Positions 2,704 to 28,410 of a stretch of 64,000 nt of DNA are shown here, piece by piece. The number at the start of each line of letters is the position of its first letter. Within the stretch, counting starts at the first letter, position 1. The notes beneath the pieces were generated by a model. That model saw nothing but the letters and a program-made list of their open reading frames with translations. It was not told the DNA's origin and searched no databases. The translations under genes were made by a program, and so were the position numbers. This stretch comes from Microbacterium saperdae (lineage in GTDB: Bacteria > Actinomycetota > Actinomycetes > Actinomycetales > Microbacteriaceae), in assembly GCF_006716345.1 (NCBI RefSeq), contig NZ_VFOX01000001.1, positions 2,666,001 through 2,730,000 of the forward strand, in the 5' to 3' direction.

Positions 2704-2744
2704 CGTCGTTCCGCTCCTTCCGTCGATCCGATCACCCCTGATCG

Positions 2745-2771
2745 AATTGACAACATTGGATATAGTCAATT
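2745..2771. promoter_or_regulatory. Divergent promoter/operator: inverted repeat AATTGAC-N13-GTCAATT
   Basis: A perfect 7-bp inverted repeat with a 13-bp spacer lies in the only AT-rich part of the 126-bp gap between the leftward reductase-oxygenase operon and the rightward aminotransferase gene. This is the expected place for a shared operator. The binding protein is unknown and no regulator gene is adjacent. Confidence 0.5.
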
Positions 2772-2829
2772 GCGATACTATGAATCCCGCCCGAGGCTGT
2801 CAAACGGGCGACGAACGAGAGGCGGAACG

Positions 2830-3927: not shown

Positions 3928-3934
3928 CCCGCGC

Positions 3935-6647: not shown

Positions 6648-6663
6648 GTCTACACTGGTGGAA
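6648..6663. promoter_or_regulatory. Shared 16-bp palindromic operator, site A
   Basis: The site gTCTACACTGGTGGAA ends 2 bases before the ATG of the amidohydrolase. It matches three other intergenic sites in the window (consensus kTCTACAnnnGTGGAA). Its TACACT also resembles a -10 box 9 bases from the ATG, so the transcript may be nearly leaderless, with the operator lying on the promoter. Repression by occlusion is the simplest reading. Confidence 0.55.
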
Positions 6664-6665
6664 TA

Positions 6666-8009
6666 ATGAGCGACACATCCCCCGGCGACGAAGCCGATCT
6701 GATCATCCGCGGCGGGCGGATCCACACCTTCGACGGCCAGGACTCCGCCGTGAGCGCCCTGGCCGTCCGTGCGGGGCGCATCATCGCCCGGGACTCCGAG
6801 GCCGAGAAGCTCGCAGCAGCGCGCACGATCGAGCTCGACGGGCGCACCGCCATCCCCGGCATCAACGATGCGCATCTGCACGCGGCCTGGCTCGGCGCCC
6901 GCTGGCCGCACCTGTTCTTCTCCGACACTCCCCCGGAGGATCAGCCCTCCGGCCGGCTGGTGACGACCGAGACCGAACGCCGCGCGGCCCTCACCCGCGC
7001 CTGGGGTCTGCTCGCCGAGCTCGGCATCACGAGCTACACCGAGCCGGGCATCGGCCCGGGAGAAGACGACGGGGAGACCGGATGCTTCGGCACCGACATG
7101 CTCGCCACCTACACCGCGTTGCACCGCGAGCGCGCACAGACGTCCCGCGTGACGCTGCTCCGCCTGTTCGGCACGATCGACGGCGAGAGCACCCTCGAGG
7201 ACTTCGAGCGGGGCATCCGCACCACGGCACCGACCACGGACCCGCACTGGCTCGCGGTGACCGGGGTGAAGATCTTCGCCGACGGCATCCCGCCGATGGC
7301 GACCGCCTGGGTCGAAGAGCCCTACCCCGACGGATCGACCGGAGAGCTCCTGACGCGTGGCAGCGATGCCCCTCTGAGCGCGTTCCGGCGGATGATCGAG
7401 CTCGCCGCCGCGCGCGGCCTGCAGATCGCCGTGCACGCGACAGGAGATCGCTCGATCACCGAGTTCCTGCACGCACTGGAAGGTCTCGACGCTGCTCCGC
7501 CCGCTGCGGGCCCGCACTATGTGGTGCACGGCGACCTCGCGACCACCGCGCAGCTCGAGCGGATGCGGCGCCTGGGGGCGGGGTTCGCGGTGCAGCCGCT
7601 CATCGCCGCCCACACGCACGACTGGGCGGGCGCGCAGCTCGGACCCGAACGATTGGCGCGGGCCTGGCCGCTGCGCGAGATGCTGGCCACAGGGACCCTC
7701 ACGACGATCACGAGCGACGCCCCCATCGCGACGCCTGACTGGCGGGTCGGCCTCGATTCCTCTCTCGCACTGCTCTCCGCAGCGGGCCGCCCGGACGACA
7801 CGGAGCTGCGCAGAACGCTGCTGCGCACGATGACCGTCGATGCCGCACGCCAGGACGGCGCCGTGACATGGAAGGGATCGCTCGAGGTGGGCAAGGTCGC
7901 CGATCTCACAGTTCTCGACGAGGACCCCTGCGCGCCGGGCCGCCCCTTCGCGTCCCTCGCGGTCGCGCGTACGATCGTCGACGGCCGCAGCATCTACCTC
8001 CGCGATTGA
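6666..8009 (+). CDS. Amidohydrolase family 3 (YtcJ-like) protein
   Basis: A 447-residue metal-dependent hydrolase of the amidohydrolase_3/YtcJ group. The metal-binding HxH is H70-x-H72 in INDAHLHAAW, further histidines lie in IAVHATGDRS, and the C-terminal SDAPI motif holds the catalytic aspartate. The C-terminus has the usual EVGKVADLTVLDEDP composite-domain strand. The ATG at 6666 lacks a strong ribosome site, which fits the nearly leaderless promoter at operator A. Family members hydrolyse amides, lactams or related bonds; the substrate is unknown. Operator A links it to the methyltransferase, transporter and reductase genes downstream. A strong terminator follows. Confidence 0.85.
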   Translation: MSDTSPGDEADLIIRGGRIHTFDGQDSAVSALAVRAGRIIARDSEAEKLAAARTIELDGRTAIPGINDAHLHAAWLGARWPHLFFSDTPPEDQPSGRLVTTETERRAALTRAWGLLAELGITSYTEPGIGPGEDDGETGCFGTDMLATYTALHRERAQTSRVTLLRLFGTIDGESTLEDFERGIRTTAPTTDPHWLAVTGVKIFADGIPPMATAWVEEPYPDGSTGELLTRGSDAPLSAFRRMIELAAARGLQIAVHATGDRSITEFLHALEGLDAAPPAAGPHYVVHGDLATTAQLERMRRLGAGFAVQPLIAAHTHDWAGAQLGPERLARAWPLREMLATGTLTTITSDAPIATPDWRVGLDSSLALLSAAGRPDDTELRRTLLRTMTVDAARQDGAVTWKGSLEVGKVADLTVLDEDPCAPGRPFASLAVARTIVDGRSIYLRD

Positions 8010-8055
8010 GCCCGACGCGCAGCGGGCATTCGCTCATCCGACTCCGAACGAGAAC

Positions 8056-8087
8056 GGCGGGCGGCATGTTCACGCATGCCGCCCGCC
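8056..8087. terminator. Hairpin terminator between convergent genes
   Basis: Thirteen-base perfect arms (GGCGGGCGGCATG and its complement) with a 6-base loop lie between the stop of the amidohydrolase and the stop of the leftward methyltransferase. A second, less perfect GC-rich stem follows at about 8115-8143. No clear U-tract is present, which is common in high-GC actinobacteria. Confidence 0.75.
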
Positions 8088-8148
8088 TCTGATCCCCCTC
8101 GGATCAGTTTTCCGCCCCGGCGCCCGAACCGGCGCGCCGGGGCCGTCT

Positions 8149-9138
8149 TCACACCGCCGTCGCGACGAGCACCCGCGGGCTTCCGGGCAGCGCGATCTTG
8201 TCGCGCACCTGCCAGCCGGCATCGTCGAGCCACCCGCGCACCTGCGCCTCGGGGTAGACGATCGTCCCGTCGATGACCAGGTACTCCCCCGCGTGCAGGG
8301 CGTCGAGCCCTCGCTGCTCAGGGTCGTCGTCGAGGAAGAAGTCGAGCACGGTGAGCGTGGCGCCCGCGACCGCCGCGCCCCGGAGGGTGCGGAAGATCCG
8401 CGCGTTCTCCTCCGCGCTGAACCGGTGGATCACGTGGTTCGCGAACACCGCGTCGTACTCGCCCTGCGGCGTGGCGGTGGCGGTGTCCCCCACCTCGACG
8501 ACCGCGCGATCCGCGACCCCCGCCGACTCGACCGCTTCGACGATGCCGTCCTCGAACCCGGGGGCGTAGAGGAACGTCGTGTGCAGCTGCGGATTCTGCG
8601 CCATCACCGACAGCGCGAACTCCGCGGACAACCCTCCGAAGTCCAGTGCACGTGTGGCGCCGCCGAGATCGACGTGGCGACCGAACTCCTGCGCGTGCAG
8701 GCGGTTGTAGGTCATGACGCCGGCCATGAAGGTGGCCCAGCGCGCGTCGTCCATCTGCAGGTCGCCCGGTTCGGTGGTGTCCACGGTGTGCGCGATCTGG
8801 AGCCAGTGCGGGTAGCTGATCTCGTCGAGGAAGGTCAGGAACGGCGCGAGATCGATCGCGGCACCCGTACCGGTCAGGTACGCCGCCGCATCCGGGGCCG
8901 TCGCATAGCGCGCATCCGCGCGGACGAGCAGCCCCTTGGCGGCCATGGCGTCGGCGAGCAGACGGGCGATCCGTTCGCTCACACCGCAGCGGACGGCGAT
9001 CGCCTCTGCCGTGTCGGCACCGGCGGCGACAGCGGAGAAGAGCCCGATCCGGCTGGCCTGGAAGAGCTGCTTCGATGCCATGTAGCCGGTCGCGATGTCG
9101 AGGATGCGCGCCGCGTCGGGAGTGGAGGTGTGGGTCAT
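8149..9138 (-). CDS. SAM-dependent O-methyltransferase-like protein
   Basis: A 329-residue protein. The N-terminal helical dimerisation and winged-helix part (about 1-100, with LFSAVAAGADTAEAIAVRCGVSE) and the C-terminal class I methyltransferase fold resemble the plant-type/antibiotic O-methyltransferase family. The SAM motif region reads ALDFGGLSAEFAL, with the usual GxGxG weakened to GGLSA. The C-terminal part has HVIHRFSAEENARIF, typical of the family. Substrates are usually hydroxyls on aromatic or polyketide compounds. The start is about 25 bp from operator B. It is probably the last gene of the leftward block, or has its own promoter at operator B. Confidence 0.78.
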   Translation of the reverse strand: MTHTSTPDAARILDIATGYMASKQLFQASRIGLFSAVAAGADTAEAIAVRCGVSERIARLLADAMAAKGLLVRADARYATAPDAAAYLTGTGAAIDLAPFLTFLDEISYPHWLQIAHTVDTTEPGDLQMDDARWATFMAGVMTYNRLHAQEFGRHVDLGGATRALDFGGLSAEFALSVMAQNPQLHTTFLYAPGFEDGIVEAVESAGVADRAVVEVGDTATATPQGEYDAVFANHVIHRFSAEENARIFRTLRGAAVAGATLTVLDFFLDDDPEQRGLDALHAGEYLVIDGTIVYPEAQVRGWLDDAGWQVRDKIALPGSPRVLVATAV

Positions 9139-9161
9139 GGTGACCGCCTTTCGTGTGATCT

Positions 9162-9177
9162 ATCTACAAATGTGGAA
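9162..9177. promoter_or_regulatory. Shared 16-bp palindromic operator, site B
   Basis: aTCTACAAATGTGGAA lies 24-39 bp upstream of the methyltransferase ATG (leftward), in an AT-rich 77-bp gap. It is a close match to sites A, C and D. Confidence 0.6.
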
Positions 9178-9215
9178 AATAATGGGCGGCGCGGAACCCC
9201 GCGGAACGATCCGAT

Positions 9216-9914
9216 TCAGCCGGCGAGGAAACCGCGCACAGCATCACGGAGCTCGGGAGCGTGCAGCGCCGCGAGGTGATCTCCGGGGACCCGAGCCGTC
9301 CGAGCATCCGGGAGGAGCGCGGCGAGCGCATCGATCCCGGCCGCCATGGCGTCGTCCGCACCACCGAGCAGCAGCACCGGCATCCGCGGCCCTTCGGCGT
9401 TCGGCGCGAACGGCTCCGCAGCGAGCCCCTCGATCAGATCGAGCAGCGCACCAGGGCGATTCCCCGGCGCCGCGATCATGTGCGCGATCATGGCCGTGAG
9501 CGGATCGCCCGGCGCCGCTCCTCCCGCGATCGCGGACCGTGCAGCGGCGAGATCCACGGCCGCGAAGGGCTCCCCCGCGCTGAGTCCTCCGAGCACCAGC
9601 CGGCGCACCGAGACGTCGGACCGCCGCGCCAGATCCCAGGCGAGACGCGCGCCGAGCGAGTACGCCACGACATCGACCTCCTCCGCACCGATGCCCTCAG
9701 CCAGGGCGTCGAGCACGGCGGCGGTCGGAGCGGTTCCGAGCGCCGGGCTGTCACCGTGCGCCGGAAGATCCACCACGAGCCGCGGCCGGCCGTCGAGCGC
9801 GTGGGCCCACTCGGCCTCCGGCCAATCCTGCGCGCCGCGCGAGGCGAGGCCGTGCAGGAACACGACCGGTCGCCCGGAGCCCGGGTGGCGTGCGATGAGA
9901 AGGGGGGATGTCAC
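9216..9914 (-). CDS. Alpha/beta hydrolase (MhpC/esterase-like)
   Basis: A 232-residue single-domain alpha/beta hydrolase. The oxyanion-side motif HG (residues 21-22), the nucleophile S86 in AYSLGAR, an aspartate in LLGGADDAM and the late histidine in VPGDHLAAL form the usual triad. The start is the GTG at 9914 with GAGAGGAC upstream. It lies 34 bp downstream of the TetR gene and is likely cotranscribed with it. The substrate is unknown; an ester or a C-C bond of a catabolic intermediate fits the context. Confidence 0.8.
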   Translation of the reverse strand: MTSPLLIARHPGSGRPVVFLHGLASRGAQDWPEAEWAHALDGRPRLVVDLPAHGDSPALGTAPTAAVLDALAEGIGAEEVDVVAYSLGARLAWDLARRSDVSVRRLVLGGLSAGEPFAAVDLAAARSAIAGGAAPGDPLTAMIAHMIAAPGNRPGALLDLIEGLAAEPFAPNAEGPRMPVLLLGGADDAMAAGIDALAALLPDARTARVPGDHLAALHAPELRDAVRGFLAG

Positions 9915-9948
9915 GGTGCGCCGTCCTCTCGGATCCGGCGCGCCGCCG

Positions 9949-10536
9949 TCAGCGGAGCCGCGCCAGGAACTGGTCGATATACGTCTGGTAGTCGGCGATG
10001 CGCTCGCCGTCGGGGTACATGAGGTTGATGACCGTCGCGCCCACCGCGACCGAGATGAACTCGTTCGCGAACGGGGCGTAGTCCTGCTCGCGGATGGCTC
10101 CCGCCTCGCGGGCGGCCTCCATGCGCTCGACGAGCATCGCGTGCCAGCGCCCGAGATGCGTCCGGTAGAGCTCCGTCAGCGAGTCGTTCGACATCGCGTA
10201 CTCCCAGAGCGCCAACAGCACGCGTCCGCTCGCGATCTCGTCGACTCCGCTCGGCAGCGTCCCCTCGAGCACCTGCCTGAGCATCTGCTCCGGCGTCGCG
10301 CCCGCCGAGATCGACTCCTGCAGCCATTCGTCGTGTTGGTGCAGCACCGTCTCGAACGTCGCCGCGACGATGCTTTCCTTGCCGGGGAAGTAGTGCTTCA
10401 GCGCACCGTTCGCGAAGCCCGCCTCCGCCGCGATGCTGCGCATCGTGGCCGCTTCGAACCCGCCCTTGAGGATGATGGACTTCGCCACCTCGACGATGTC
10501 CCGTCGACGCTGGTCGTGGTCGATGATCTTCGGCAT
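9949..10536 (-). CDS. TetR-family transcriptional regulator
   Basis: 195 residues. The N-terminal helix-turn-helix reads ATMRSIAAEAGFANGALKHYF, the standard TetR DNA-binding block; the rest is the ligand-binding domain. The ATG at 10536 was chosen because GGAAGGA lies just upstream; the 40 further residues open upstream have no family match. It sits between the ABC transporter genes and the alpha/beta hydrolase on the same strand. It is a candidate regulator of the four-site palindrome, but no such palindrome lies directly in front of it. Confidence 0.88.
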   Translation of the reverse strand: MPKIIDHDQRRRDIVEVAKSIILKGGFEAATMRSIAAEAGFANGALKHYFPGKESIVAATFETVLHQHDEWLQESISAGATPEQMLRQVLEGTLPSGVDEIASGRVLLALWEYAMSNDSLTELYRTHLGRWHAMLVERMEAAREAGAIREQDYAPFANEFISVAVGATVINLMYPDGERIADYQTYIDQFLARLR

Positions 10537-10613
10537 GGAGTCCTTCCGGCCGGTTCTGGATCGGCGATCCTCCGCACATTCCGCGTCGGCGCGGGGAGAG
10601 ATCGGGCCTGGAG

Positions 10614-11447
10614 CTACCGTACCGCCGCATCGGGCACCTCCCGCAGAGCGAGCCACTGCGCACGGCGAGCGCGTTGCGCAGCGGGGTCGGCGACCGGGGA
10701 GGCGAGACGCAGGCGTTCGGAGTACGCATGCCGCGGCGCCCGCGTGACCTGCTCGCCCTCGCCGACCTCGACGAGCTCGCCGCGATACATCACGGCCACC
10801 CGATGGCAGACTCGACGCACGACGCCCAGATCGTGCGACACGAAGAGGTACGACACCCCGGTGTCACGCTGCAGCTCGATGAACAGGTCGAGGATCGTCG
10901 CCTGCGTGGTGAGGTCGAGCGCGCTGACCGGTTCATCGCACACGATGAGCCGCGGCCCGCGCACGAGGGCACGGGCGATCGCGATCCGCTGCCGCTGGCC
11001 TCCCGAGAACTCGCTCGGGTAGCGGTCCATCGCGGCGACGGGCAGGCTCACGCGGTCGAGCATCTCCCGCACCTTCGCCTCCGCCGCCTTCGCCCCGATG
11101 CCGGTGGTGAGCAGGGGCTCCGCGAGGATGTCGCCGATCGTCATGGCCGGGTTCAGGGAGCCGTAGGGGTCCTGGAACACGACCTGCACGTCATCCGCCA
11201 GCGCGCGGCGCCCGCGGCCGCTCACCCGGGTGATGTCCTGCCCGTCGAAGCGGATGCTGCCGCTCGTGACCGGCGCGAGCCCCAGGATCGCCTTGCCGAG
11301 GGTGGACTTGCCCGAACCGGACTCGCCGACCAACCCGAGGCACTCCCCCGGGGCGATGTCGAGCGAGACGCCGTGCAGCGCGCGGAAGGCCGTGCGCCCG
11401 CGTCCGTAGTCGACGACGAGGTTGTCGACCTCGAGCAGCGCGTTCAC
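10614..11447 (-). CDS. Dipeptide/oligopeptide ABC transporter ATPase (DppF/OppF-like)
   Basis: 277 residues. Walker A GESGSGKS at 41-48, signature FSGGQ at 147-151 and Walker B LIVCDEP at 167-173 are intact, and the C-terminus has the RHAYSERL element typical of the Opp/Dpp ATPases. It powers import with the fused permease-ATPase encoded upstream, which it overlaps by 4 bp (ATGA), so translation is coupled. It is the second ATPase of the heterodimeric motor. Confidence 0.9.
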   Translation of the reverse strand: MNALLEVDNLVVDYGRGRTAFRALHGVSLDIAPGECLGLVGESGSGKSTLGKAILGLAPVTSGSIRFDGQDITRVSGRGRRALADDVQVVFQDPYGSLNPAMTIGDILAEPLLTTGIGAKAAEAKVREMLDRVSLPVAAMDRYPSEFSGGQRQRIAIARALVRGPRLIVCDEPVSALDLTTQATILDLFIELQRDTGVSYLFVSHDLGVVRRVCHRVAVMYRGELVEVGEGEQVTRAPRHAYSERLRLASPVADPAAQRARRAQWLALREVPDAAVR

Positions 11448-13252
11448 GCGTTCACCTCCGTGATCAGCACGGACCGCTGAGCGACCCGATCGAGTTCGGC
11501 ACGTCCGTCGGCGTCGTCGAGCGACGCCGAGATCAGCGCTCGGGTGTACTCCTCGGCGGGAGCCGCGAACAGGTCATCGACCGGACCGGACTCCACGATG
11601 TCGCCGCCGCGCATCACGATCACCCGGTCGCAGATGTCGGCCACGACACCGAAGTTGTGGGTCACGATCAGCAACGCCATGCCGTACTCGGCCTGCAGCT
11701 CACGCAGCAGTTCGAGCACCTCGGCCTGCACGGTCACGTCGAGCGCCGTGGTGGGCTCGTCGGCGACCAGCAACGCAGGTCGGCCCGCGATCGCACCGGC
11801 GATCAGCACGCGCTGCGCCATGCCCCCGGAGACCTGATGCGGATAGCTGCGCATGACGCGGTCGGGGTCGGTGAGTCCGACCCGCACCAGCATGGCGCGG
11901 GCGCGCTCCCTCGCGGCCGTTCTGCTCAGTCCGTGCGTGCGACGCAGCGGCTCGATGAGCTGGTGGCCGATCGTGTAGGAGGGATCGAGGTTGCTCATCG
12001 GCTCCTGCGGCACGTAGCCGATGGCGCGGCCGAGCAGAGCCTGTCGCTGCTTCGGGGTCGCCCGGGTGACGTCGGTGCCGCCGACCCAGATCGCATCGGC
12101 GACCGCGCGGCCGGTCGACGGCAGCAGGTCGAGCACCGAGAACACGGTCTGGGACTTTCCCGAGCCCGACTCCCCCACGATGCCGACGACCTCGCCCGGC
12201 GCGACATCGAGCGTGACGCCGTGCACGACCTCGGTCTCCCCCGCGGGGGTCGCATGCGCCACGCGCAGGTTCTCGACCCGCAGCGCGGCCGCTGCGGCCT
12301 CGTGCTGCGTGGTACCGGTCGCCGCGACGGTCGGCATCGGGGCAGCTGTCGACGCCCCGTTCCGGCGACGGGCCGCGCGGGGCGTGCGCACCTGCACGAG
12401 TTCGGCGAGGGTCGATCCCATGATCGCGAGCACGGCGATCGTGAGGCCGAGCGCCGCCGAGGGCCAGAGCAGCATGAGCGGGTAGGTGAGCATGAGACGG
12501 AAGCCCTCGAGCATCATCGCGCCCCAGCTGGGAACGTTCGAGTCCCCGATGCCGAGGAACTGGAGCCCGGCCTGCATGCCCATCGCGATACCCGCGGTGA
12601 GCGCGGTCTGGATGATCACCGGCGGATAGACCGCCTTGATCACGTGCCGGAAGATGATGCGCGCATCCGACAGTCCGGAGACGCGGGCGGCATCGATGTA
12701 GGGCTCGCCCCGCACCGCGAGGGTCTGGGATCGTGAGATGCGGAAGTAGCCGGGCACCATGAACACGCCGACCGTGGCCATCAGGACCTCGAAGTTGTTG
12801 CGGCTCCCTGCGGCGACCACGAGCAGGATGATCATGCCGGGGATCGACTGCAGAGCGTCGCTGATCCAGGTCGCGACCCGGTCGAAGGTCCCGCCGAAGT
12901 AGCCCGCAGCGACGCCGGCGGGGACGCCGATCACGAGGGCGGTGACGATCGTGATGAGTGCGCCCCACAGGGTCGTACGGGTGCCGTAGATGAGCCGCGA
13001 GAGGATGTCGCGGCCGGTGGAGTCTCCGCCCAGGAGATGCTCCGGACCCGGCGCGGCCTTCGCGGCCGAGAGGTCGACGAAGTTCGGATCCATCGGCGCG
13101 AGCAGGGGCGCGAGGACTCCCACGAGCAGGATCAGCAGGAAGATCGCGAGCGGGATGTAGCCGCCGGGGTGGCGGAGGAAGCGGCGGAACAGGCCGGAGC
13201 GGCGCTTCTGCGCGGCGCGGTCGAAGGCGACGCGGATGTCTGTGGTGGTCAT
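11444..13252 (-). CDS. Fused Dpp/Opp permease (DppC-like) and ATPase (DppD-like)
   Basis: A 602-residue single polypeptide. Residues about 1-290 are a DppC-type inner-membrane permease with six helices and the EAA loop near 183-205 (EPYIDAARVSGLSDARIIF). A 35-residue Ala/Thr/Arg-rich linker follows. Residues about 325-602 are an ABC ATPase with Walker A 360-367, Q-loop near 416, signature VSGGM 474-478 and Walker B LLVADEP 494-500. The start at 13252 overlaps the DppB stop (ATGA); the frame is open further upstream but only as a shadow of DppB. In most bacteria these are separate genes; similar fusions are known in actinobacteria. Confidence 0.9.
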   Translation of the reverse strand: MTTTDIRVAFDRAAQKRRSGLFRRFLRHPGGYIPLAIFLLILLVGVLAPLLAPMDPNFVDLSAAKAAPGPEHLLGGDSTGRDILSRLIYGTRTTLWGALITIVTALVIGVPAGVAAGYFGGTFDRVATWISDALQSIPGMIILLVVAAGSRNNFEVLMATVGVFMVPGYFRISRSQTLAVRGEPYIDAARVSGLSDARIIFRHVIKAVYPPVIIQTALTAGIAMGMQAGLQFLGIGDSNVPSWGAMMLEGFRLMLTYPLMLLWPSAALGLTIAVLAIMGSTLAELVQVRTPRAARRRNGASTAAPMPTVAATGTTQHEAAAAALRVENLRVAHATPAGETEVVHGVTLDVAPGEVVGIVGESGSGKSQTVFSVLDLLPSTGRAVADAIWVGGTDVTRATPKQRQALLGRAIGYVPQEPMSNLDPSYTIGHQLIEPLRRTHGLSRTAARERARAMLVRVGLTDPDRVMRSYPHQVSGGMAQRVLIAGAIAGRPALLVADEPTTALDVTVQAEVLELLRELQAEYGMALLIVTHNFGVVADICDRVIVMRGGDIVESGPVDDLFAAPAEEYTRALISASLDDADGRAELDRVAQRSVLITEVNA

Positions 13253-14190
13253 GCGACGCGCACCTTCGGGTTGATCCAGCCGAGGACGAGATCCAGCAGG
13301 AGGTTGATGAGGACGACGAAGACGATCGAGATCACGGTGATGCCGAGGAGCATCGGGATGTCGCCGTTCTGCGAGGACTGGTTGGTGAGCTGTCCGAGAC
13401 CGGGGAGGCTGAAGATCTGCTCGACCACGATCGCGCCGGAGAGCAGGCCGACGAACATCAGGGCGATCACCGTGAGCGCGGCAGGCGACGCGTTGCGCAG
13501 GATGTGCAGATTCACGCGCGTGGCCGAGAGCCCGCGGCTGCGGAGGGTGCGCACCCAGTCCTGACGGCTCTGCGCGATGACAGCGTTGCGCAGCTGCTCC
13601 GCCACCGCGACGATGCCACCGAGCGCGAGGGAGATCGCCGGGAGCGTGATCGATCGCAGCCACCCCTCGACCGACTGCGTCGGAGGCACGTACCCCACGG
13701 CGGGGAACCACTTCAGCTGCACCGCGAGCCACATGACCAGCACGAGGCTGACCCAGAAGCCCGGGAGGGCGAACAGCACGACCGAGATGCCCTTGATGAT
13801 CCGGTCGAACCAGGTGCCGGGTCGCAGCCCCGTGATCATGCCGAAGGCGACACCGATGACGGCGGTGATGAGAGTGGCGAACGTGACGACCGAGAGCGTG
13901 ACGGGTACCTTGATCGCGAGCTGGTCCGCGACGGGCTGGAAGTTGCGCCAGGAGACCCCGAAGTCCAGCAGCGCGGCGTGCGAGAGCCAGTCCCAGAACT
14001 GCACCAGGAGAGGGCGGTCGAGACCGATCTTCTCCGCGAGCGCGGCCTGCTGGGCAGGGCTCGCCGTGGTGCCCAGCAGCGCGGCCGTCGGATCGCTGAT
14101 CGCCAGGTGGGCGAGGAAGAACGTGCCGATCGAGACCGCGACGAGCAGGAGGATGCCGGACAGCATCCGCTTCGCCGTGAACAGAAGCAT
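13249..14190 (-). CDS. Dpp/Opp-type ABC transporter permease (DppB-like)
   Basis: 313 residues with about six membrane helices. The N-terminus (KRMLSGILLLVAVSIGTFFLAHLAISDP) is typical of DppB proteins, and the EAA loop reads RTLRSRGLSATRVNLHIL. It forms the membrane channel with the fused DppC-D protein. It lies 100 bp downstream of the substrate-binding protein gene and overlaps the next gene by 4 bp. Confidence 0.9.
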   Translation of the reverse strand: MLLFTAKRMLSGILLLVAVSIGTFFLAHLAISDPTAALLGTTASPAQQAALAEKIGLDRPLLVQFWDWLSHAALLDFGVSWRNFQPVADQLAIKVPVTLSVVTFATLITAVIGVAFGMITGLRPGTWFDRIIKGISVVLFALPGFWVSLVLVMWLAVQLKWFPAVGYVPPTQSVEGWLRSITLPAISLALGGIVAVAEQLRNAVIAQSRQDWVRTLRSRGLSATRVNLHILRNASPAALTVIALMFVGLLSGAIVVEQIFSLPGLGQLTNQSSQNGDIPMLLGITVISIVFVVLINLLLDLVLGWINPKVRVA

Positions 14191-14290
14191 GAGGACCTCT
14201 CGGAGGGTCGGAGGGGGATGGATGCCGGGGCGGCGCCCGTCCGCATCACCGCAGATCGCAGTGAGGGGACAGCGGCCGCCCCGGCGGGCG

Positions 14291-15820
14291 TCAGCCCTGA
14301 GTGATGTAGCGCAGCGTGGGGAACATCATCCCGACCACCGGCTGCAGCTGGATGCCGGCAGCGGTGTAGTAGATGTTGTTCGCCTGGTACCAGACCGACC
14401 ACCATGCCTGGTCGACGAGCGCCTGATTCAGCTCCTGGATGGCGGCGGTCTGCTCGTCACCACGGGCGCTCTGCACCTTCTCGACGAGCGGGGCGATGAC
14501 CTCGTTCTTGGCGTAGTCCGGCTCGGGGTTGAACCACTGCACGCTCGTGAGCTGGCGGGAGACCGTCGCGACGTCGTTGCCGTCCATGGCCAGGAACGAG
14601 ATGAACATCGGGTAGTTCGGTGCGTTCAGCTGGTAGTCCGGCATCTGCATGTTGTCCCAGGTGACGGTGATGCCGAGCTCGTTGAGCGCCTGCTCGGCGG
14701 AGGGCTTCCACATCTCGAAGATGGGCGACATGGGCATCGAGATCTCGAAGCCGTCGGGGTAGCCGGCGTCTGCCAGCAGTTCCTTGGCCTTGTCGATGTT
14801 GTAGGCGTAGGTCTCGTTCAGCGCCGGATCGTTGATCGCGCCACCGTCGGGGAACACCTGGTTGGTCGCGACGCCCGCCCCGCTGCCGACGGCGGCGAGG
14901 ACTGCGGCGCCGTCGAAGGCGTAGTTCAGCGCCTGGCGCACCTCGAGCTTGCCGAGGGGCTCGCTCTTGGCGCCGGTGTGATCGGTGATCACGAGGCCCG
15001 CCCAGCCGGAGACGCGCTGCGCGACGTTCCACCCCTGCTGGTCGGCCTGCTCGAGGTTCGCCACGTCGCCGTACTGCACGTTGATCTGGCCGCTGAGCAT
15101 CGCGTTGTGGCGTGCCGTGGCATCTGTGATCGGGAAGATCGACAGCTCCGCGAACGGATACGTCTTGGCATCCCAATGGTCGTCGACCTTGGTGAAGTGG
15201 TACTCCGCACCGGCGACGCTCGTCGCGCTGTCGAGGACGTAGGGACCGGAGCCGATCGGCTCCTTGCCCAGCGAATCGGCGTCGATGGATGCCGGAGACA
15301 TGACGTAGCTGCGGCCGAGGCCCATCAGATACAGGATCGTGTCGTCGCGCTGCGTGAGCCTGATGCTGATCGTGTCCTCGTCGACCTTCTCGAAGGACGA
15401 GACATTGAGGTAGGCCTCCCCCGAACGGGCTCCGGCCTTGAGGTACTCCAGGCTCTTGACCACGGCGTCGGCGTCGACCGGGGTGCCGTCGCTGAACACG
15501 GCGTCGGTGCGGATGTCGAGGTCGATGCTCAGGTCGTCGTCTGCGACGGTCCATTCGGTCGCGAGCGACGGGATCGGGTTGCCGTCCTTGTCGAGGGCGA
15601 TCAGGGCGTCGTAGACGGCGGACAGGTACGGTCCGTCGAACCCGATGTCGGCCAGCGACGGGTCCCACGACGTCACGTCGAGGAAGTTGCCGATGTTCAG
15701 GGCGTCAGGGCTGTCCACGCCGCTGTCGTCGGACGGAGCCGGTGCGGTTCCGCCGCTGCAGCTGGTGAGCGCGAGTGTCGCGGCGAGGGCCGCGGCGATC
15801 GCAAGGGGCATTCGTTTCAT
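14291..15820 (-). CDS. Family 5 extracellular solute-binding lipoprotein
   Basis: 509 residues. A lipoprotein signal peptide ends in LALTSC with C21 as the lipidated cysteine. The mature protein has the SBP_bac_5 layout (SYVMSPASIDAD, GSGPYVLDS, RQALNYAFD, DAGYPDGFEI). It captures the ligand for the Dpp-type transporter encoded downstream. Family 5 proteins bind peptides, but also nickel, opines, sugars and small natural products, so the ligand is open. Operator C, about 100 bp upstream, ties it to the catabolic genes. Confidence 0.92.
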   Translation of the reverse strand: MKRMPLAIAAALAATLALTSCSGGTAPAPSDDSGVDSPDALNIGNFLDVTSWDPSLADIGFDGPYLSAVYDALIALDKDGNPIPSLATEWTVADDDLSIDLDIRTDAVFSDGTPVDADAVVKSLEYLKAGARSGEAYLNVSSFEKVDEDTISIRLTQRDDTILYLMGLGRSYVMSPASIDADSLGKEPIGSGPYVLDSATSVAGAEYHFTKVDDHWDAKTYPFAELSIFPITDATARHNAMLSGQINVQYGDVANLEQADQQGWNVAQRVSGWAGLVITDHTGAKSEPLGKLEVRQALNYAFDGAAVLAAVGSGAGVATNQVFPDGGAINDPALNETYAYNIDKAKELLADAGYPDGFEISMPMSPIFEMWKPSAEQALNELGITVTWDNMQMPDYQLNAPNYPMFISFLAMDGNDVATVSRQLTSVQWFNPEPDYAKNEVIAPLVEKVQSARGDEQTAAIQELNQALVDQAWWSVWYQANNIYYTAAGIQLQPVVGMMFPTLRYITQG

Positions 15821-15918
15821 GGTTCCTTCTCTCGGGTGCAGGGAGTGGTGAAGAAGGTTCGAAGAGCCACTGGCCGGAGAGCCGGATCAGACGCCACTTC
15901 GATGTGTCGTGCTGGTTA

Positions 15919-15934
15919 GTCTACATGCGTGGAA
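15919..15934. promoter_or_regulatory. Shared 16-bp palindromic operator, site C
   Basis: gTCTACATGCGTGGAA lies about 99-114 bp upstream of the substrate-binding protein start (leftward). The rest of the 367-bp gap 15821-16187 shows no convincing gene or RNA structure. Confidence 0.58.
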
Positions 15935-16187
15935 AAAGAGCGCAAGAGCATTCCGTGGTGAGGAGAGCGGCATCCATGCCTCCGCGCGCACCCGACTTGT
16001 CCGAGCGCGCAGGGCTTGGCGTGAGCGGCGATCGGTCGCAGCGGTCAGCTTGCGCGGGATGTCAGACGCCGAGCGGGTCGGTCCCGCAGACGATTCACGT
16101 GCGCGCAGCAGGGGTTCGTCTTCAGGGGTCCGCCTTCAGGGGGATGTGCGGTCCTGGCGTGCGTGGTGCAGTGGAGGCAGGTTCTTG

Positions 16188-16436
16188 ATGCTCCGAGGAG
16201 GAGAAGTGGACGTTCTCAGAGTTCAACGGTTGCGGCTGGCGCTGCGGCTTGTCAGTGTCGTCGCGATCATCGTCGTGAGCGCTGCGATCATCTGGTTCGG
16301 GTTCGCTGCCACCGCTGCGTCTGGCGTCCAGATGGCCGCGGCGAGCGCGATGTTCGCGGCAGCTGCCAGCGGATGGTCGGGCGCTTTCGCAGCCATCACA
16401 GCAAAGCTGAAGTCGGGCGAGGCAGCTCGAGTCTGA
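16188..16436 (+). CDS. Small two-helix membrane protein of unknown function
   Basis: 82 residues from the ATG at 16188, or 76 from the GTG at 16206, which has the stronger AGGAGG site. Two hydrophobic segments are visible: LVSVVAIIVVSAAIIWFGFA and an Ala-rich helix containing AAASAMFAAAASGWSGAFAA. It ends in a basic tail (KLKSGEAARV). No family is recognised. It is a lone gene, convergent with the DUF222 gene. Confidence 0.5.
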   Translation: MLRGGEVDVLRVQRLRLALRLVSVVAIIVVSAAIIWFGFAATAASGVQMAAASAMFAAAASGWSGAFAAITAKLKSGEAARV

Positions 16437-16539
16437 TCGTGTTTGCTCGCCCCGTCGATGAGCCGTGGATGCGTATGCGGATGGCGCAACGAGAGACGAT
16501 GGCGTGCTTGTCACACCGGGTCGACCCAGGCAGGCCAGC

Positions 16540-17880
16540 TCAGGCGGCGATGTCGAAGCGGGCGCGGCCGCCGAGGCGGGGCGTGCGGGCGAGGTCGACA
16601 TAGCGGGGTGGCACGAACCACACCCGGGCGGTGATGCCGGTGCCGTCGATGCGGATCTCCCAGTCGTTGTCATGGATGCGGTGGTGACATGTCTCGCACA
16701 ACAGCACCCCGTTCGACAGGTCCGTCGGCCCGGCATCGCGTTGCCACCACCGGATGTGATGCGCTTTCGTCATCTCCGGCGGCAACCCGCACATCGCGCA
16801 ACCCCCATCACGCTCCACCAACGCGAGTCGTTGCCCTCGGGTGAAGAGCCGCTTCTCCCGACCCCAATCCAGGATCTCGCTGTCTGAGCCCATCACCCAG
16901 GGGATCACTCCACCTCCGGCGGCCATCCGCCGGGCTGCCCCGACACTGACCGGAGCCTCGATCCCATCGATCGTCGCCGACCCCGTCCCCGACTGCAGAT
17001 CGTCCAGGGTCATTCGTACGATCACCGTCGCTCCGGCCATCGGTACCCGAGCGTCACACCCGAGCGCGTGCGCGCAGAACGCGACCAGCGCGTCGGCCTG
17101 GATCATCGACACTGTGCGCCGATCCGCATCCGCAGCATCCGGTTCAGGCGCGTCCTTCCGCGCAGCGAACGCCACCGACACGAACCCCCGCACCGCCGTC
17201 ACCACCGGCGCCGCGGTCTCCACATCCAGCACCGCGTTCAGATGCAGCATCCCGTCCCGCTCGAACATCGTCAACGACCGGCGCGCCCGCCGCTCCTCGT
17301 CGCGCGGCGGCACCCCGTCCGGGTCCAACCACGCCTCCGCCCGCACGACCAGCTTGCGCACCGCATCCAGCGCCAACCCGGACGCCGCATCCACCAGCAC
17401 CCGCTCCCCCTCAGCGACCCGCACCGGCCCCGCGGCCACCCGGCACCGCTCCAGCACCCCGATGATCAATGCCGCCGCCTGCGCGCTCAACACCCCTGAA
17501 GCCAGCGCCTCCCGCACCCGCGGGTACTTCGCCGGCAACCGTGCCCCCAGAAGATCCGTCCGTGGCGCGGTCGCCTCCCCCACCGTCACCAACCGGGACG
17601 CCTCCCCCGCCGACACCCCGGCCGCCGCGGCGATCAACGTCGCCGTGTTCCGAAACCCCTGCTGCTTCGCCAGACTCGCCGCACCCAGCTCCGGCCGCGA
17701 CTCCCGAGCAATGCCCGCCGCGACCTCCACCTGCACCGCCGACAATCGTCGCTGCAACACCCCGAGCGCATCATTGACCGCGACCAACTGCTCCCGCGAG
17801 AGATCCTGCGCGTCATCCGCCCCCGCCCAGGCCGCTTCGAGACGACCCAGCGCCTCGTGCATCCCGACCAGTTTCGACAT
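16540..17880 (-). CDS. DUF222/13E12-family protein with C-terminal HNH nuclease
   Basis: 446 residues. The N-terminal two thirds are the DUF222 (13E12 repeat) domain; the C-terminal HNH module shows CAMCGLPPEMTKAHHIRWW, then NGVLLCETCHHRIHD, with the CxxC pairs of a zinc-stabilised ββα-metal nuclease. The family is highly multiplied in Microbacteriaceae and mycobacteria and its biological role is unsettled. An SOS box lies 32 bp upstream of the start, so DNA damage is expected to induce it. A second, longer copy lies at 52.2-53.8 kb. Confidence 0.9.
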   Translation of the reverse strand: MSKLVGMHEALGRLEAAWAGADDAQDLSREQLVAVNDALGVLQRRLSAVQVEVAAGIARESRPELGAASLAKQQGFRNTATLIAAAAGVSAGEASRLVTVGEATAPRTDLLGARLPAKYPRVREALASGVLSAQAAALIIGVLERCRVAAGPVRVAEGERVLVDAASGLALDAVRKLVVRAEAWLDPDGVPPRDEERRARRSLTMFERDGMLHLNAVLDVETAAPVVTAVRGFVSVAFAARKDAPEPDAADADRRTVSMIQADALVAFCAHALGCDARVPMAGATVIVRMTLDDLQSGTGSATIDGIEAPVSVGAARRMAAGGGVIPWVMGSDSEILDWGREKRLFTRGQRLALVERDGGCAMCGLPPEMTKAHHIRWWQRDAGPTDLSNGVLLCETCHHRIHDNDWEIRIDGTGITARVWFVPPRYVDLARTPRLGGRARFDIAA

Positions 17881-17911
17881 ACCTCATTTTACCCCGAGCC
17901 ACCCCCGAGTA

Positions 17912-17927
17912 TCGAACGTATATTCGA
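17912..17927. promoter_or_regulatory. SOS (LexA) box upstream of the DUF222-HNH gene
   Basis: TCGAAC-GTAT-ATTCGA matches the actinobacterial LexA consensus TCGAAC-N4-GTTCGA with one mismatch in twelve defined positions. LexA control of 13E12 genes is known in Mycobacterium tuberculosis. The site lies 32-47 bp upstream of the leftward gene. Adjacent short palindromes ATGCCGGCAT (17932-17941) and TATCGATA (17941-17948) are of unclear meaning. Confidence 0.75.
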
Positions 17928-18039
17928 ACGCATGCCGGCATATCGATACTCCGGGCGGTTCACCTTCCCCGGGTGCCCAGGCGACTTCCCTTACCTCGCG
18001 CCAGCCCTGAGGCCGGGCTCTCGACGAGCTCCATCGACC

Positions 18040-18359
18040 TCAGCGCTCGAAGGGCGCTCCCCCAACACCCGCTCCAGACGTCGCAGCGCTCGACCGTATC
18101 TCCGCGTCGAGGTCGACCGCAGTGTCGTTGACGGAGAGCTGGAGGGGAACCAACACGGCGGCTCCGGTCAACGTGATGATTCCCGCCACACCGAGGGGGA
18201 CCATCACGCGACGACGCCTCCACCACACCACGGGAGCGTCCGCCCCGCGATCGAAGCGCGCTGCGCGTCCCTGCTCATCTGGCCCACCAGGGCATGGCGG
18301 ATGGCGTCCTCGCCGCCTTCCGCAGGATCAGCGGATGCGAGTTCCGACGACCCTGTTCA
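18040..18359 (-). pseudogene. Decayed single-helix membrane protein gene (frameshifted, truncated)
   Basis: Two overlapping leftward frames each look coding in one part only. The upstream frame (about 18359-18204) reads EDAIRHALVGQMSRDAQRAS. The downstream frame reads WWRRRRVMVPLGVAGIITL and then LQLSVNDTAVDLDAEI, a basic segment, one membrane helix and the start of an outside domain. Joining them needs one frameshift between about 18204 and 18278. After DAEI the sequence becomes low-complexity and stops. I recall similar actinobacterial proteins of unknown function with a much longer C-terminal part. No start codon fits, so this is likely a remnant. The rest of the 17881-18429 gap holds the SOS box and nothing else I can support. 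Confidence 0.42.
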
Positions 18360-18429
18360 CCCGCCGGACAGGGAATCGTGCGAGCATCCGACGCGTTCTC
18401 ACCACGGACACATCCCGAAAGGCCACTCG

Positions 18430-18813
18430 ATGACAGACCGCCCCCGCCGCTCGGCGTGGCCACCACTCCTGGTCGCCATCGCCCTGGAAGTCATGGCCAC
18501 CCTCTCGTTGCGCGCCGCCGAAGGATTCACGCATCCGCTGTGGCTGATCCTCGTGGTGATCGGCTACAGCGGTTCGCTCTGGTTGCTCTCGATCGTGCTC
18601 GACCGGGGCATGCCGGTCGGCGTCGCCTACGGCATCTGGTCAGCGATCGGCGTCGTGGCGACGGCCGTGCTCGGCACCGTGCTGTTCGGCGAGCTGTTGG
18701 GTCCGGTGCAGATCATCGGCGTCGGCGTGATCGTGGTCGGGGTGCTGCTGGTCGAACTCGGCTCCCACACGCGGGAAACCGCGCAGCCGGCCCTCCCGGA
18801 GGTCGCCGCATGA
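18430..18813 (+). CDS. SMR-family efflux protein, first subunit
   Basis: 127 residues, four membrane helices. The membrane-embedded essential glutamate is E20 in LLVAIALEVMATLSL, and the GVAYGIW signature of helix 3 is present. SMR proteins exchange protons for cationic compounds or guanidinium. The start has AAGG seven bases upstream. The gene overlaps a second SMR gene (ATGA), as in EbrAB/YkkCD-type pairs that work as heterodimers. A C-terminal tail of about 20 residues distinguishes it from its partner. Confidence 0.9.
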   Translation: MTDRPRRSAWPPLLVAIALEVMATLSLRAAEGFTHPLWLILVVIGYSGSLWLLSIVLDRGMPVGVAYGIWSAIGVVATAVLGTVLFGELLGPVQIIGVGVIVVGVLLVELGSHTRETAQPALPEVAA

Positions 18814-19133
18814 CCTGGCTGCTGCTCGCCCTCGCGATCGCGAGCGAGGTCACCGCGACGCTGAGCCTGCGCGCGTCCGAAGGGTTCCGTCGTAAGCGCT
18901 GGATCCCGGTGATCGTCGTCGGCTACCTCGCCGCGTTCACCCTGCTCGGCACGATCCTGGCGATGGGGATGCCGGTGGGCGTCGCCTACGGCATCTGGGC
19001 CGCCGCCGGCGTCGCGGTCACCGCCGTGCTGGGACGCGTGATCTTCAAGGACCACTTCTCCGCGTTGATGGCCGTCGGTGTCGCGCTCATCGCGGTCGGT
19101 GTCGCGATGATCGAGTTCGGCGGCGTGCACTGA
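18810..19133 (+). CDS. SMR-family efflux protein, second subunit
   Basis: 107 residues, the usual SMR length, with essential E13 in ALAIASEVTATLSL and the GVAYGIWAAAG motif. It overlaps the upstream SMR gene by 4 bp and probably forms an antiparallel heterodimer with that product. No guanidine riboswitch is recognised upstream, so drug or metabolite export rather than guanidinium export is plausible. Confidence 0.9.
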   Translation: MTWLLLALAIASEVTATLSLRASEGFRRKRWIPVIVVGYLAAFTLLGTILAMGMPVGVAYGIWAAAGVAVTAVLGRVIFKDHFSALMAVGVALIAVGVAMIEFGGVH

Positions 19134-19148
19134 GGCAGGTCTCGCCAC

Positions 19149-20111
19149 TCACCAGGCCCCGTCGGCTCGCACCTCCTGATCGACCCAGCACCCGGCGAGC
19201 GCGGCGCGGACCTCATCACCGTGATCACGCGCCAGCGCCAGTGCGGCGTGATTCTGCTCCAGCTGCTCGCGGCGTGACGCACCGAACAGCACGTTCGCGG
19301 TCGCGGGATTCGACAGGCAGAAGGCGACCCCCAGCGCGGCAGGAGTGACCCCGAACTCCCCCGCGATCCGCGCGACCTCGGGGTAGATCGCCGCGATCCG
19401 TTCGCGGATCCCGCCGACGTCCGCGCCGATCTTGCGCTGCGGCGAGCGCCCGGTGGCGAGAATGCCCCCTTCGAACACATCCGAGGCCTGCAGAGTCAGC
19501 GTCCCGTCGGCGAACAGCGGCCCGTATGCGTCACCCTCGGCCATCGAGCGGCGGGCGATGCCGTACTTCAGCTGCGCGAACACCGGTCCGGCAGCACCCT
19601 GCGCCTCCGCCTCCGCCAGCGCTTCCCGCGTCTGCGCGATGCGCCAGTTGTTGATCCCCCAGGAACCGACCAGCCCCTCGGCGATCAGCGCATTCACGTC
19701 GGCGACGAGGCGCGGCATGTCGGGGGCGTCGAGGTAGTCCCCCACCACCAGCGTGTCGAACCGGTCGAGACCGGCACGCTCCAGCGACTCGAGCAGCTGC
19801 GCCCGGAAACCCTGGTTCGGCCAGTCCCAGAGCCAGAGCTTGCCGCACAGCACGAGATCGGAGCGATCGACTCCGCTGGCCCGAAGAGCCTCGCCGAACA
19901 GGATGTCGGTCTGCGAGTTCTCGGCGTGCGGTCCCATGTTGTAGTACGCGACATCGAAGAATCCGGCGTCCCGCTCCACCGCGCGGCGGATCACGGCGAC
20001 CGCCTCCTCGGAGGTCATCCGATCCCAGGTGTTCCACGATCCCAGGGCCAGCGGAGGCACCACCGCTCCCCCCGATTGCAGAGCCCTGGCGGGATATGTC
20101 GATTCAGGCAT
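19149..20111 (-). CDS. Aldo/keto reductase family protein lacking the catalytic His
   Basis: 320 residues of the AKR (beta/alpha)8 family. D53 and Y56/Y57 lie in GFFDVAYYNMG, and K91 in LVLCGKLWL. The position that normally holds the tetrad histidine (LLH) is glycine G124 in TLVVGDYLD. The ATG at 20111 follows AAGGAG. The enzyme could still reduce carbonyls with altered pH dependence, or act as an isomerase or dehydratase. It is divergent from the SDR-led operon across operator D and is paralogous to the AKR at 22066-23037. Confidence 0.85.
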   Translation of the reverse strand: MPESTYPARALQSGGAVVPPLALGSWNTWDRMTSEEAVAVIRRAVERDAGFFDVAYYNMGPHAENSQTDILFGEALRASGVDRSDLVLCGKLWLWDWPNQGFRAQLLESLERAGLDRFDTLVVGDYLDAPDMPRLVADVNALIAEGLVGSWGINNWRIAQTREALAEAEAQGAAGPVFAQLKYGIARRSMAEGDAYGPLFADGTLTLQASDVFEGGILATGRSPQRKIGADVGGIRERIAAIYPEVARIAGEFGVTPAALGVAFCLSNPATANVLFGASRREQLEQNHAALALARDHGDEVRAALAGCWVDQEVRADGAW

Positions 20112-20150
20112 GAAGACTCCTTCAGCTTCGCGTGACACGGGGTTGTGTTT

Positions 20151-20166
20151 TTCTATGTTTGTAGAA
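20151..20166. promoter_or_regulatory. Shared 16-bp palindromic operator, site D
   Basis: TTCTATGTTTGTAGAA has perfect 5-bp arms (TTCTA/TAGAA) and in reverse complement reads TTCTACAAACATAGAA, matching sites A-C. It is centred in the 100-bp divergent gap between the leftward AKR and the rightward six-gene operon. Confidence 0.62.
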
Positions 20167-20211: not shown

Positions 20212-20946
20212 ATGACCGAATCCCCCCGCCGCATCCTGGTCACCGGAGGCGCCTCCGGGCTCGGCCGCGGCATCGCCGCCGCCTTCCGCGCGGAGGGAGC
20301 CGAGGTCTTCATCGGCGATGTCAATGCGGATGCCGCCGCCACAGCTGCCGCGGAGGTCGGGGCCACGGCGCTCACGCTCGACATCGGCGACGAGGCATCC
20401 GTCCTCGCGGCGGCCGAGCAGATCGCCGCATCCGGGGGCCTCGACGTGCTCGTCAACAACGCCGGCATCGTCGCGGGCGGCGGCACACTGCAGGAAGTTC
20501 CGGTCGACGTCGTCGATGCGGCGCTGCGTGTCAATGTGCGTGGCACGTTCCTGATGCTCCGCGTGTTCGGCGCACTGCTCGCGACCGCCGGCCGCGGCTC
20601 GATCGTCAACATCTCCTCGATCGGCGCCCGCCAGCCGACTCCCGGCCTCGGGCACTACGAGGCCACCAAGGCTGCGGTCGATGCGCTCACGCGTACCGCC
20701 GCGATCGAGCTCGCCTCGTCCGGCGTTCGCGTGAACGCGGTCGCTCCGGGGCCCGTGCTCACGCCGCTCACCGCCGCCTTCGCCTCGGACCCGCAGGCCC
20801 GCGCGGCCTGGGAGTCGCGTATCCCGCTCGGCACGATCGCCGAGATCGACCAGATCACCCCGCTCGTGCTCTTCCTCGCGAGCGATGCCGCCAATCACAT
20901 CACCGGGATCTCCGTCGCCGTCGACGGAGGACAGCTCCTGGTCTGA
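20212..20946 (+). CDS. SDR-family NAD(P)-dependent oxidoreductase
   Basis: 244 residues, a classical SDR. TGGASGLG at 11-18 binds the cofactor, NNAG is at 82-85, and the catalytic residues are S136, Y149 and K153. The C-terminal GISVAVDGGQLLV closure is intact. It opens a tightly packed operon: SDR, zinc alcohol dehydrogenase, AKR, two esterases and an MFS exporter. Three oxidoreductases with two esterases suggest stepwise oxidation and hydrolysis of one compound. Confidence 0.9.
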   Translation: MTESPRRILVTGGASGLGRGIAAAFRAEGAEVFIGDVNADAAATAAAEVGATALTLDIGDEASVLAAAEQIAASGGLDVLVNNAGIVAGGGTLQEVPVDVVDAALRVNVRGTFLMLRVFGALLATAGRGSIVNISSIGARQPTPGLGHYEATKAAVDALTRTAAIELASSGVRVNAVAPGPVLTPLTAAFASDPQARAAWESRIPLGTIAEIDQITPLVLFLASDAANHITGISVAVDGGQLLV

Positions 20947-28350: not shown

Positions 28351-28410
28351 AATAGTCAGACATCGATCGAAAGCAGCGAGGACACCGAGCGGATGCGCCA
28401 AGATGGGCAG

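Follow-up and report, generated by a model that had tools for sequence, protein, structure and literature searches.

The stretch analysed here, called the window throughout, comprises 64,000 nucleotides of the Microbacterium saperdae genome (contig NZ_VFOX01000001.1, positions 2,666,001 to 2,730,000), and coordinates without further label refer to it. Between 6648 and 20166 it contains four copies of one palindromic element, sites A to D, which are suggested as the operators of a TetR-family regulator encoded in their midst. They lie at the coordinates where a first-pass annotation of this DNA had placed them, and all four are intergenic, as it had said, in that each falls between called genes.

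6648..6663, + strand: candidate operator A, GTCTACACTGGTGGAA; exact match to TCTACANNNGTGGAA at 6649-6663, ending 2 nt ahead of the AMH3 start codon
9162..9177, + strand: candidate operator B, ahead of the O-methyltransferase gene; exact match to TCTACANNNGTGGAA at 9163-9177
15919..15934, + strand: candidate operator C, ahead of the putative SBP-DppB-DppCD-DppF-TetR-hydrolase operon; exact match to TCTACANNNGTGGAA at 15920-15934
20151..20166, - strand: candidate operator D, common to the proposed divergent AKR1 and SDR promoters; match at 20151-20165 with 2 mismatches to TCTACANNNGTGGAA

The match at site A begins 17 nt ahead of the amidohydrolase ATG at 6666. Site D has a single mismatch to TCTACNNNNGTRGA and continues into TAGAAT on the SDR side. 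The consensus kTCTACAnnnGTGGAA proposed in the first-pass annotation describes A, B and C exactly but misses D by two positions, and it is understood as the Microbacterium variant of a symmetric KTCTAC-N4-GTAGAM. The genes that the sites would serve, with operon extents judged from strand and spacing only, are AMH3, OMT and AKR1 singly, six genes in the operon of site C and six in the operon to the right of site D, hence 15, in agreement with the "15 or more" predicted. Together they encode a four-gene oligopeptide-type ABC importer, an amidohydrolase, three alpha/beta hydrolases, two aldo/keto reductases, an SDR, an alcohol dehydrogenase, an O-methyltransferase, an efflux pump and the TetR.

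6666..8009, + strand: AMH3, amidohydrolase family 3 (PF07969; domain match, metal-ligand motifs by eye)
8149..9138, - strand: OMT, small-molecule O-methyltransferase (PF08100 and PF00891)
9216..9914, - strand: ABH, alpha/beta hydrolase (PF00561), last gene of the putative C operon
9949..10536, - strand: TetR, proposed repressor (PF00440 and BetI-type C-terminus PF13977)
10614..11447, - strand: DppF-type ABC ATPase (family match)
11444..13252, - strand: DppC-type permease fused to DppD-type ATPase, 602 amino acids (domains by eye; open reading frame of similar length in relatives)
13249..14190, - strand: DppB-type permease (by eye, from position and sequence)
14291..15820, - strand: SBP, peptide/nickel-type solute-binding protein (family match)
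19149..20111, - strand: AKR1, aldo/keto reductase (closest in the PDB is AKR6D1)
20212..20946, + strand: SDR, first gene of the putative D-right operon (family match)
20957..22057, + strand: ADH, zinc-type alcohol dehydrogenase (family match)
22066..23037, + strand: AKR2, second aldo/keto reductase (family match)
23061..24059, + strand: HSL1, alpha/beta-hydrolase-3 type esterase (PF07859; start set by eye, script call at 23100)
24056..25039, + strand: HSL2, second esterase of HSL1 type (likeness to HSL1 by eye)
25075..26250, + strand: Bcr/CflA-type efflux MFS transporter (TIGR00710, 277 bits against a cut-off of 200.9), last gene of the putative D-right operon

In both AKR1 and AKR2 the catalytic histidine (HRPD in AKR6D1) is apparently replaced, with "GD" found about there (from alignment for AKR1, by eye for AKR2).

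The exact sequence TCTACANNNGTGGAA is present in three copies in the 4.3-Mb genome, all of them in this cluster and within 9.3 kb, a length for which about 1e-4 exact matches are expected (at the rate of the six found in the 178 Microbacterium genomes that gave no TetR hit, assuming a mean genome size of 3.4 Mb). The genome scan had been set beforehand as a refuting check, and exact matches are not spread across the genome. With up to three mismatches the window holds 14 matches where 13.2 are expected, and with up to two the genome holds 54 compared to 136 for the reversed pattern; because these loose counts lie at or below control, loose matches are uninformative and the exact ones carry the signal. 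The earlier statement that the sites are unlikely by chance is thus sustained for the exact matches, but loose matches occur at chance level. One match with a single mismatch elsewhere in the genome (G000:C2:365445) has no cluster gene around it, by eye, and was taken as chance. The idea that all four sites are chance look-alikes draws on the same loose counts; it is contradicted by the exact matches and by the conservation and co-occurrence described below, and its probability is regarded as negligible.

Conservation at the same promoters was followed in 80 loci collected for their TetR relatives, hence chosen through the regulator. Gene calls came from a simple script that scores codons, so the start codons of relatives are approximate, and a gene was scored when a site differing from TCTACNNNNGTRGA at no more than one position lay within 220 bp upstream, which shuffled sequences reach in at most 2.5%. 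Allowing up to two mismatches to the strict pattern, these loci contain 227 matches compared to 18 for the reversed pattern. The usual order in Microbacterium is SDR-[D]-AKR1 ... [C]-SBP-DppB-DppCD-DppF-TetR-ABH-[B]-OMT-AMH3-[A], and the sites are kept in it: the SBP upstream regions match TCTACNNNNGTRGA exactly (23/23), those of AKR1 (20/20) and SDR (20/20) carry the site with one mismatch, and 21 of the 22 AMH3 regions have it with at most one, the 14-mer ending exactly 3 nt ahead of the called start codon in 20 of the 22. For OMT, 15 of 26 regions show the site with up to one mismatch and 24 with up to two. By the same criterion, no Microbacterium site is found upstream of TetR (0/25), ABH (0/26), DppF (0/24), ADH (0/16), AKR2 (0/11), HSL1 (0/5), AlkZ (0/14), HNH (0/6), HisC (0/3) or FdRed (0/3). 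Retention in related clusters of other strains, which the first-pass annotation had made a second check, is therefore found.

Two further features of these loci may be recorded. Genes for a Rieske-type oxygenase (weak family matches) and a reductase with a ferredoxin domain lie to the left of the proposed regulon at 513-2769 and are kept in place in some Microbacterium loci (L052, L059, L071), the reductase having an operator in 0/3. Between AKR1 and site C, three Microbacterium loci (L073 at 2157-4484, L055, L113) contain within the cluster an open reading frame of 775-801 amino acids, which in L073 is a sulfatase (PF00884).

Independent of any choice through the cluster is the survey of 198 Microbacterium genomes, in which the TetR was sought at 1e-30 and found in 20, and the strict motif was found 41 times in 24 genomes compared to 7 times for its reversal. 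The motif occurs in 18 of the 20 TetR-hit genomes (35 matches), always on the contig of the TetR and within 6.5 kb of it, and it is present, once each, in 6 of the 178 genomes lacking the hit. All 15 genomes having at least two strict matches carry the TetR, and the association is expressed in a Fisher p of 1.6e-18, uncorrected for descent. The two TetR-hit genomes without a strict match differ in kind. In G043 (TetR of 60% identity) relaxed sites are found at the same promoters, those of OMT and AKR1/SDR at two mismatches. In G081 the hit is just a paralogue (37%) next to an amine oxidase, and that genome shows neither the AKR1/OMT core nor a site with at most one mismatch. OMT is present in all 19 genomes with a TetR orthologue. 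A class-level sample of 394 genomes has AKR1 (E <= 1e-70) in five and the TetR in 11 at a limit of 1e-25; the five best TetR matches (E <= 1e-38, a line drawn afterwards) are in the same five AKR1 genomes, and the remaining six show 31-34% identity. Two of the AKR1/TetR genomes, G216 and G376, come from other genera and carry sites.

The protein at 9949-10536 has the N-terminal helix-turn-helix of the family (PF00440, 43.7 bits against a cut-off of 24) and a BetI-type C-terminal domain (PF13977, 50.2 bits against 27), and its predicted model is all-helical with a mean pLDDT of 87.9. The recognition helix FANGALK.YF is nearly invariant in 30 homologues, with identity to the window protein falling to 39%. 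Considering its co-occurrence with the motif together with this nearly invariant helix, we think it very likely that the TetR is the repressor, and the earlier proposal of one palindrome, four promoters, one catabolic regulon and a TetR candidate is supported by the same evidence along with the conservation at the same promoters. In Microbacterium, the protein exists with two types of effector domain, residues 64-195 being about 60-68% alike between types and residues 1-63 being 95-100% identical. The type does not track the tree of neighbouring genes (orthologues L052-L074, L090, L113; several nodes weakly supported), and an exchange of the sensing domain is suggested by this departure. A second BetI-type TetR is encoded at 28393-28995, and in G199 and G313 related TetRs adjoin a gene for an amine oxidase.

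Outside Microbacterium, sites are found in Leucobacter, Amycolatopsis, Streptomyces and alphaproteobacteria, at the same genes in other arrangements, and the consensus of 143 distinct sites gives the general operator as the palindrome kTCTACRnnYGTAGAm. The tally left out eight of the 80 loci (L082, L083, L092, L098, L108, L118, L124, L127), added L182, and skipped genes below 38% identity to the window or with less than 150 bp upstream. Leucobacter/Rothia have upstream sites at OMT (13/13), SDR (12/12), AKR1 (12/13), ADH (11/11), AMH3 (10/10) and TetR (11/13); Amycolatopsis/Actinocrispum at OMT (10/10), TetR (10/10), DppF (9/9), SDR (7/7) and AKR1 (6/7); Streptomyces at AKR1 (9/9), SDR (8/8) and AMH3 (4/4); and the alphaproteobacteria Cucumibacter and Devosia at SBP (2/2), AKR1 (2/2) and AMH3 (1/2). 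Spongiactinospora/Nonomuraea have a site upstream of the TetR itself in 5/5, and Maritalea has both cluster and sites. The sites follow the genes through rearrangement. Concerning the loci left out, L082 yielded no genes at the default score and showed cluster and sites at a lower threshold, L083 is a contig of 4.5 kb, L098 shares its chromosome with L094, and L108 and L124 have a site ahead of the TetR. Phosphotriesterase-family genes (PF02126) adjoin regulon genes in Leucobacter and Sphaerimonospora (L100:10629-11786, L096:1455-2537). An AKR of 37% identity is present on five Aminobacter plasmids; on the one examined it belongs to a different kind of ABC/IclR cluster, and these plasmids were set aside.

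The sites could be a real operator bound by another regulator encoded elsewhere, with the TetR a mere passenger of the cluster. The absence of a site directly upstream of the Microbacterium TetR genes would fit such a scenario, as would the fact that TetR binding to A to D is predicted from sequence. We consider it distinctly improbable: motif presence tracks this TetR over the 198 genomes, the regulator gene is itself preceded by a site in Leucobacter/Rothia, in Amycolatopsis/Actinocrispum and in Spongiactinospora/Nonomuraea, and no other regulator is seen among the labelled genes common to the loci, where the unlabelled genes are not all identified.

Based on the collective evidence, sites A to D are very probably the operators of the BetI-type TetR at 9949-10536, which would repress 15 genes in five transcripts until an inducer appears. 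Without inducer, a TetR dimer would bind the palindrome, overlap the -10 region of the promoters (five in all) and block transcription; for the amidohydrolase, it would cover the stretch directly ahead of the start codon. Release of the TetR by the inducer, for which the substrate or an early intermediate is the probable candidate, would turn on the 15 genes. By gene order only, the TetR is the fifth gene after site C, so it would also repress itself through that operator, in a negative feedback. The placement of the sites is consistent with this mechanism. An operator-like stretch (8/10 positions) is present in 54 SDR upstream regions (SDR below 45% identity and regions lacking the stretch were excluded); of these 54, 49 show TATAAT, TATACT or TAGAAT where one arm ends, and in Microbacterium site C lies, by eye, between TTGCGC and TAGACT. 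A -10-like hexamer at the operator would constitute the geometry of occlusion.

That geometry also bears on two other ways of reading the sites. Some TetR-family proteins activate, and FasR is listed as an activator family among the profile matches; the TetR might then act on the sites as activator or in a mixed role, which is very improbable given the 49 of 54 SDR regions and the abutment of A on a start codon, both of which speak for occlusion. The coincidence of one arm with the -10-like hexamer and the end of A at the start codon could alternatively mean that the sites are not operators but a promoter element, -10 plus start region, which these genes have in common. We attach hardly any probability to it, for both arms are conserved, the orientation relative to the gene varies among A to D, and genomes that lack the TetR seldom contain the strict motif.

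Several observations weigh against repression by this TetR at these sites. The genomes are related by descent, and the p-values overstate their independence; the 80-locus results are biased by selection through the TetR, and only the surveys of 198 and 394 genomes are free of it. The strict pattern is not found, even with two mismatches allowed, in fourteen of the 80 loci, most of them from Streptomyces. The OMT sites of Microbacterium are degenerate (9/26 with two mismatches, two worse), and those upstream of OMT and SBP are missing in Streptomyces (0/9 and 0/8), as are those of OMT in Cucumibacter/Devosia (0/2). Three loci with a TetR hit (L092, L118, L127) are without a site at up to one mismatch, and they have at most one adjoining relative of a core enzyme or the MFS transporter (MFS in L092, HSL2 in L127, none in L118). 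Conversely, G163 has sites ahead of AKR1 and ABH/OMT and no TetR hit, in an assembly that is 76% complete and on a contig of 3.6 kb, which the notion of a regulator encoded elsewhere can claim. Site A also precedes Gap2 by 127-206 nt (13/20 loci), as site C precedes SMR1 (4/6); these genes score because they are divergent to A and C, respectively, and the two sites could conceivably affect them too. A scan for the sigma-70 consensus returned one promoter-like match, at D, with a -10 of TATGTT and not the proposed TAGAAT, and none at A, B or C; as the scan matched only D, and there with another -10, we infer the promoters. On the supporting side, a 28.9-kb stretch of an Embleya plasmid (NZ_CP108785.1 1955805-1984725, L180) contains relatives of AKR1, AKR2, SDR, ADH, OMT and AMH3, together with hpa-type genes and a branched-chain-type importer. 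Within that stretch, the rest of the plasmid not having been searched, there is no relative of this TetR and no site at up to one mismatch. This support is weakened by another, unrelated TetR-like open reading frame seen there by eye.

To the right of the proposed regulon lies a second conserved catabolic cluster at 29097-52035, with a copper amine oxidase, a FeaR-like regulator, two MoaF-like proteins, a family-3 amidohydrolase, an aldehyde dehydrogenase and a branched-chain-type ABC importer.

29097-31085: primary-amine oxidase (NF008559, 845 bits against a cut-off of 651)

The MoaF-like marker of this cluster occurs in 38 of the 198 Microbacterium genomes (20/20 with the TetR hit, 18/178 others), and parts of the cluster adjoin the TetR in Amycolatopsis, several Leucobacter loci, G216 and G376. 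Further right are paa and hpa genes: PaaA, PaaE, PaaZ and PaaK exceed their cut-offs, as do HpaD and HpaE, and HpaH falls just short. HpaD is over cut-off beside the core enzymes in Embleya, and HpaE/HpaG-like genes, below cut-off, stand beside the core in the one Streptomyces locus examined (L077). With the adjoining amine oxidase cluster and the paa/hpa genes, the genomic context points more to a compound of arylethylamine/arylacetate type than to the ester- or amide-bearing hydroxylated one of the first-pass annotation. Against it stands the presence of HpaD in 166 of the 198 Microbacterium genomes, which deprives this gene of value as a pathway clue in the genus. The substrate first suggested may also apply, since esterase-type, amidohydrolase, AKR and SDR genes are present. 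The solved structures that SBP, HSL1 and OMT match in sequence indicate no specific substrate. It is a tentative possibility, held at below even confidence, that these genes form the upper pathway for an arylethylamine-type compound in conjugated form, the product of which feeds the copper amine oxidase cluster and the paa/hpa pathways. More doubtful is an extended scenario in which an undescribed upper pathway has spread with its operators through actinobacteria and alphaproteobacteria, where it might import and deconjugate an acylated, sulfated or esterified arylethylamine-type natural compound for an amine-oxidase, phenylacetate and homoprotocatechuate island, and in which the effector-sensing domain of the TetR might have been swapped repeatedly against a constant DNA-binding domain, allowing strains to tune the inducer with operators unchanged.

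The importance of these results lies in giving a TetR subfamily a defined candidate operator and a set of 15 candidate targets recurring in two phyla. The proposed regulon links enzymes that otherwise look unrelated (an AKR6-like reductase, an O-methyltransferase and a family-3 amidohydrolase), and a single binding assay together with a single screen for inducers could settle regulator, pathway and substrate in many genomes at once.

Among known systems, the FeaR-tynA-feaB system for amine oxidation in E. coli resembles the neighbouring cluster, which has a primary-amine oxidase over its cut-off and a FeaR-like AraC regulator; it differs in that the FeaR-like protein here stays under the FeaR cut-off (169.9 against 199), and it is not known to include a counterpart of the TetR regulon. 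Pseudomonas putida U reportedly has a 3,4-dihydroxyphenylacetate catabolon for tyramine and dopamine, in which amine oxidation is joined to an hpa-type lower pathway, comparable to the HpaD and HpaE over cut-off in the present genome; it is not known to include an upper regulon of AKR, SDR, OMT and amidohydrolase under such a TetR. N-substituted formamide deformylase, a family-3 amidohydrolase like AMH3, gives its name ("precursor") to two of the 120 AMH3 homologues listed, a likeness that consists in source-given names and leaves the activity of AMH3 putative. The closest PDB sequence to the TetR, the TetR-family protein 2nx4, is similar over the whole length (E 8e-30), and its PDB listing names neither operator nor function. 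Among the papers listed by searches of the open-licence PMC literature, none describes the regulon as judged by title and opening of the abstract. The nearest analogy is to the BetI/TetR-family local repressors (PF13977), shared in domains, all-helical model, local palindromic sites and a regulator gene lying among the predicted targets. The present TetR differs from BetI in scoring below the equivalog cut-off (TIGR03384, 71.1 against 201.3 bits) and in having predicted targets other than the choline/betaine genes of BetI. The proposed system is of a known kind, the local TetR catabolic regulon, and as a member of that kind it appears to be new.

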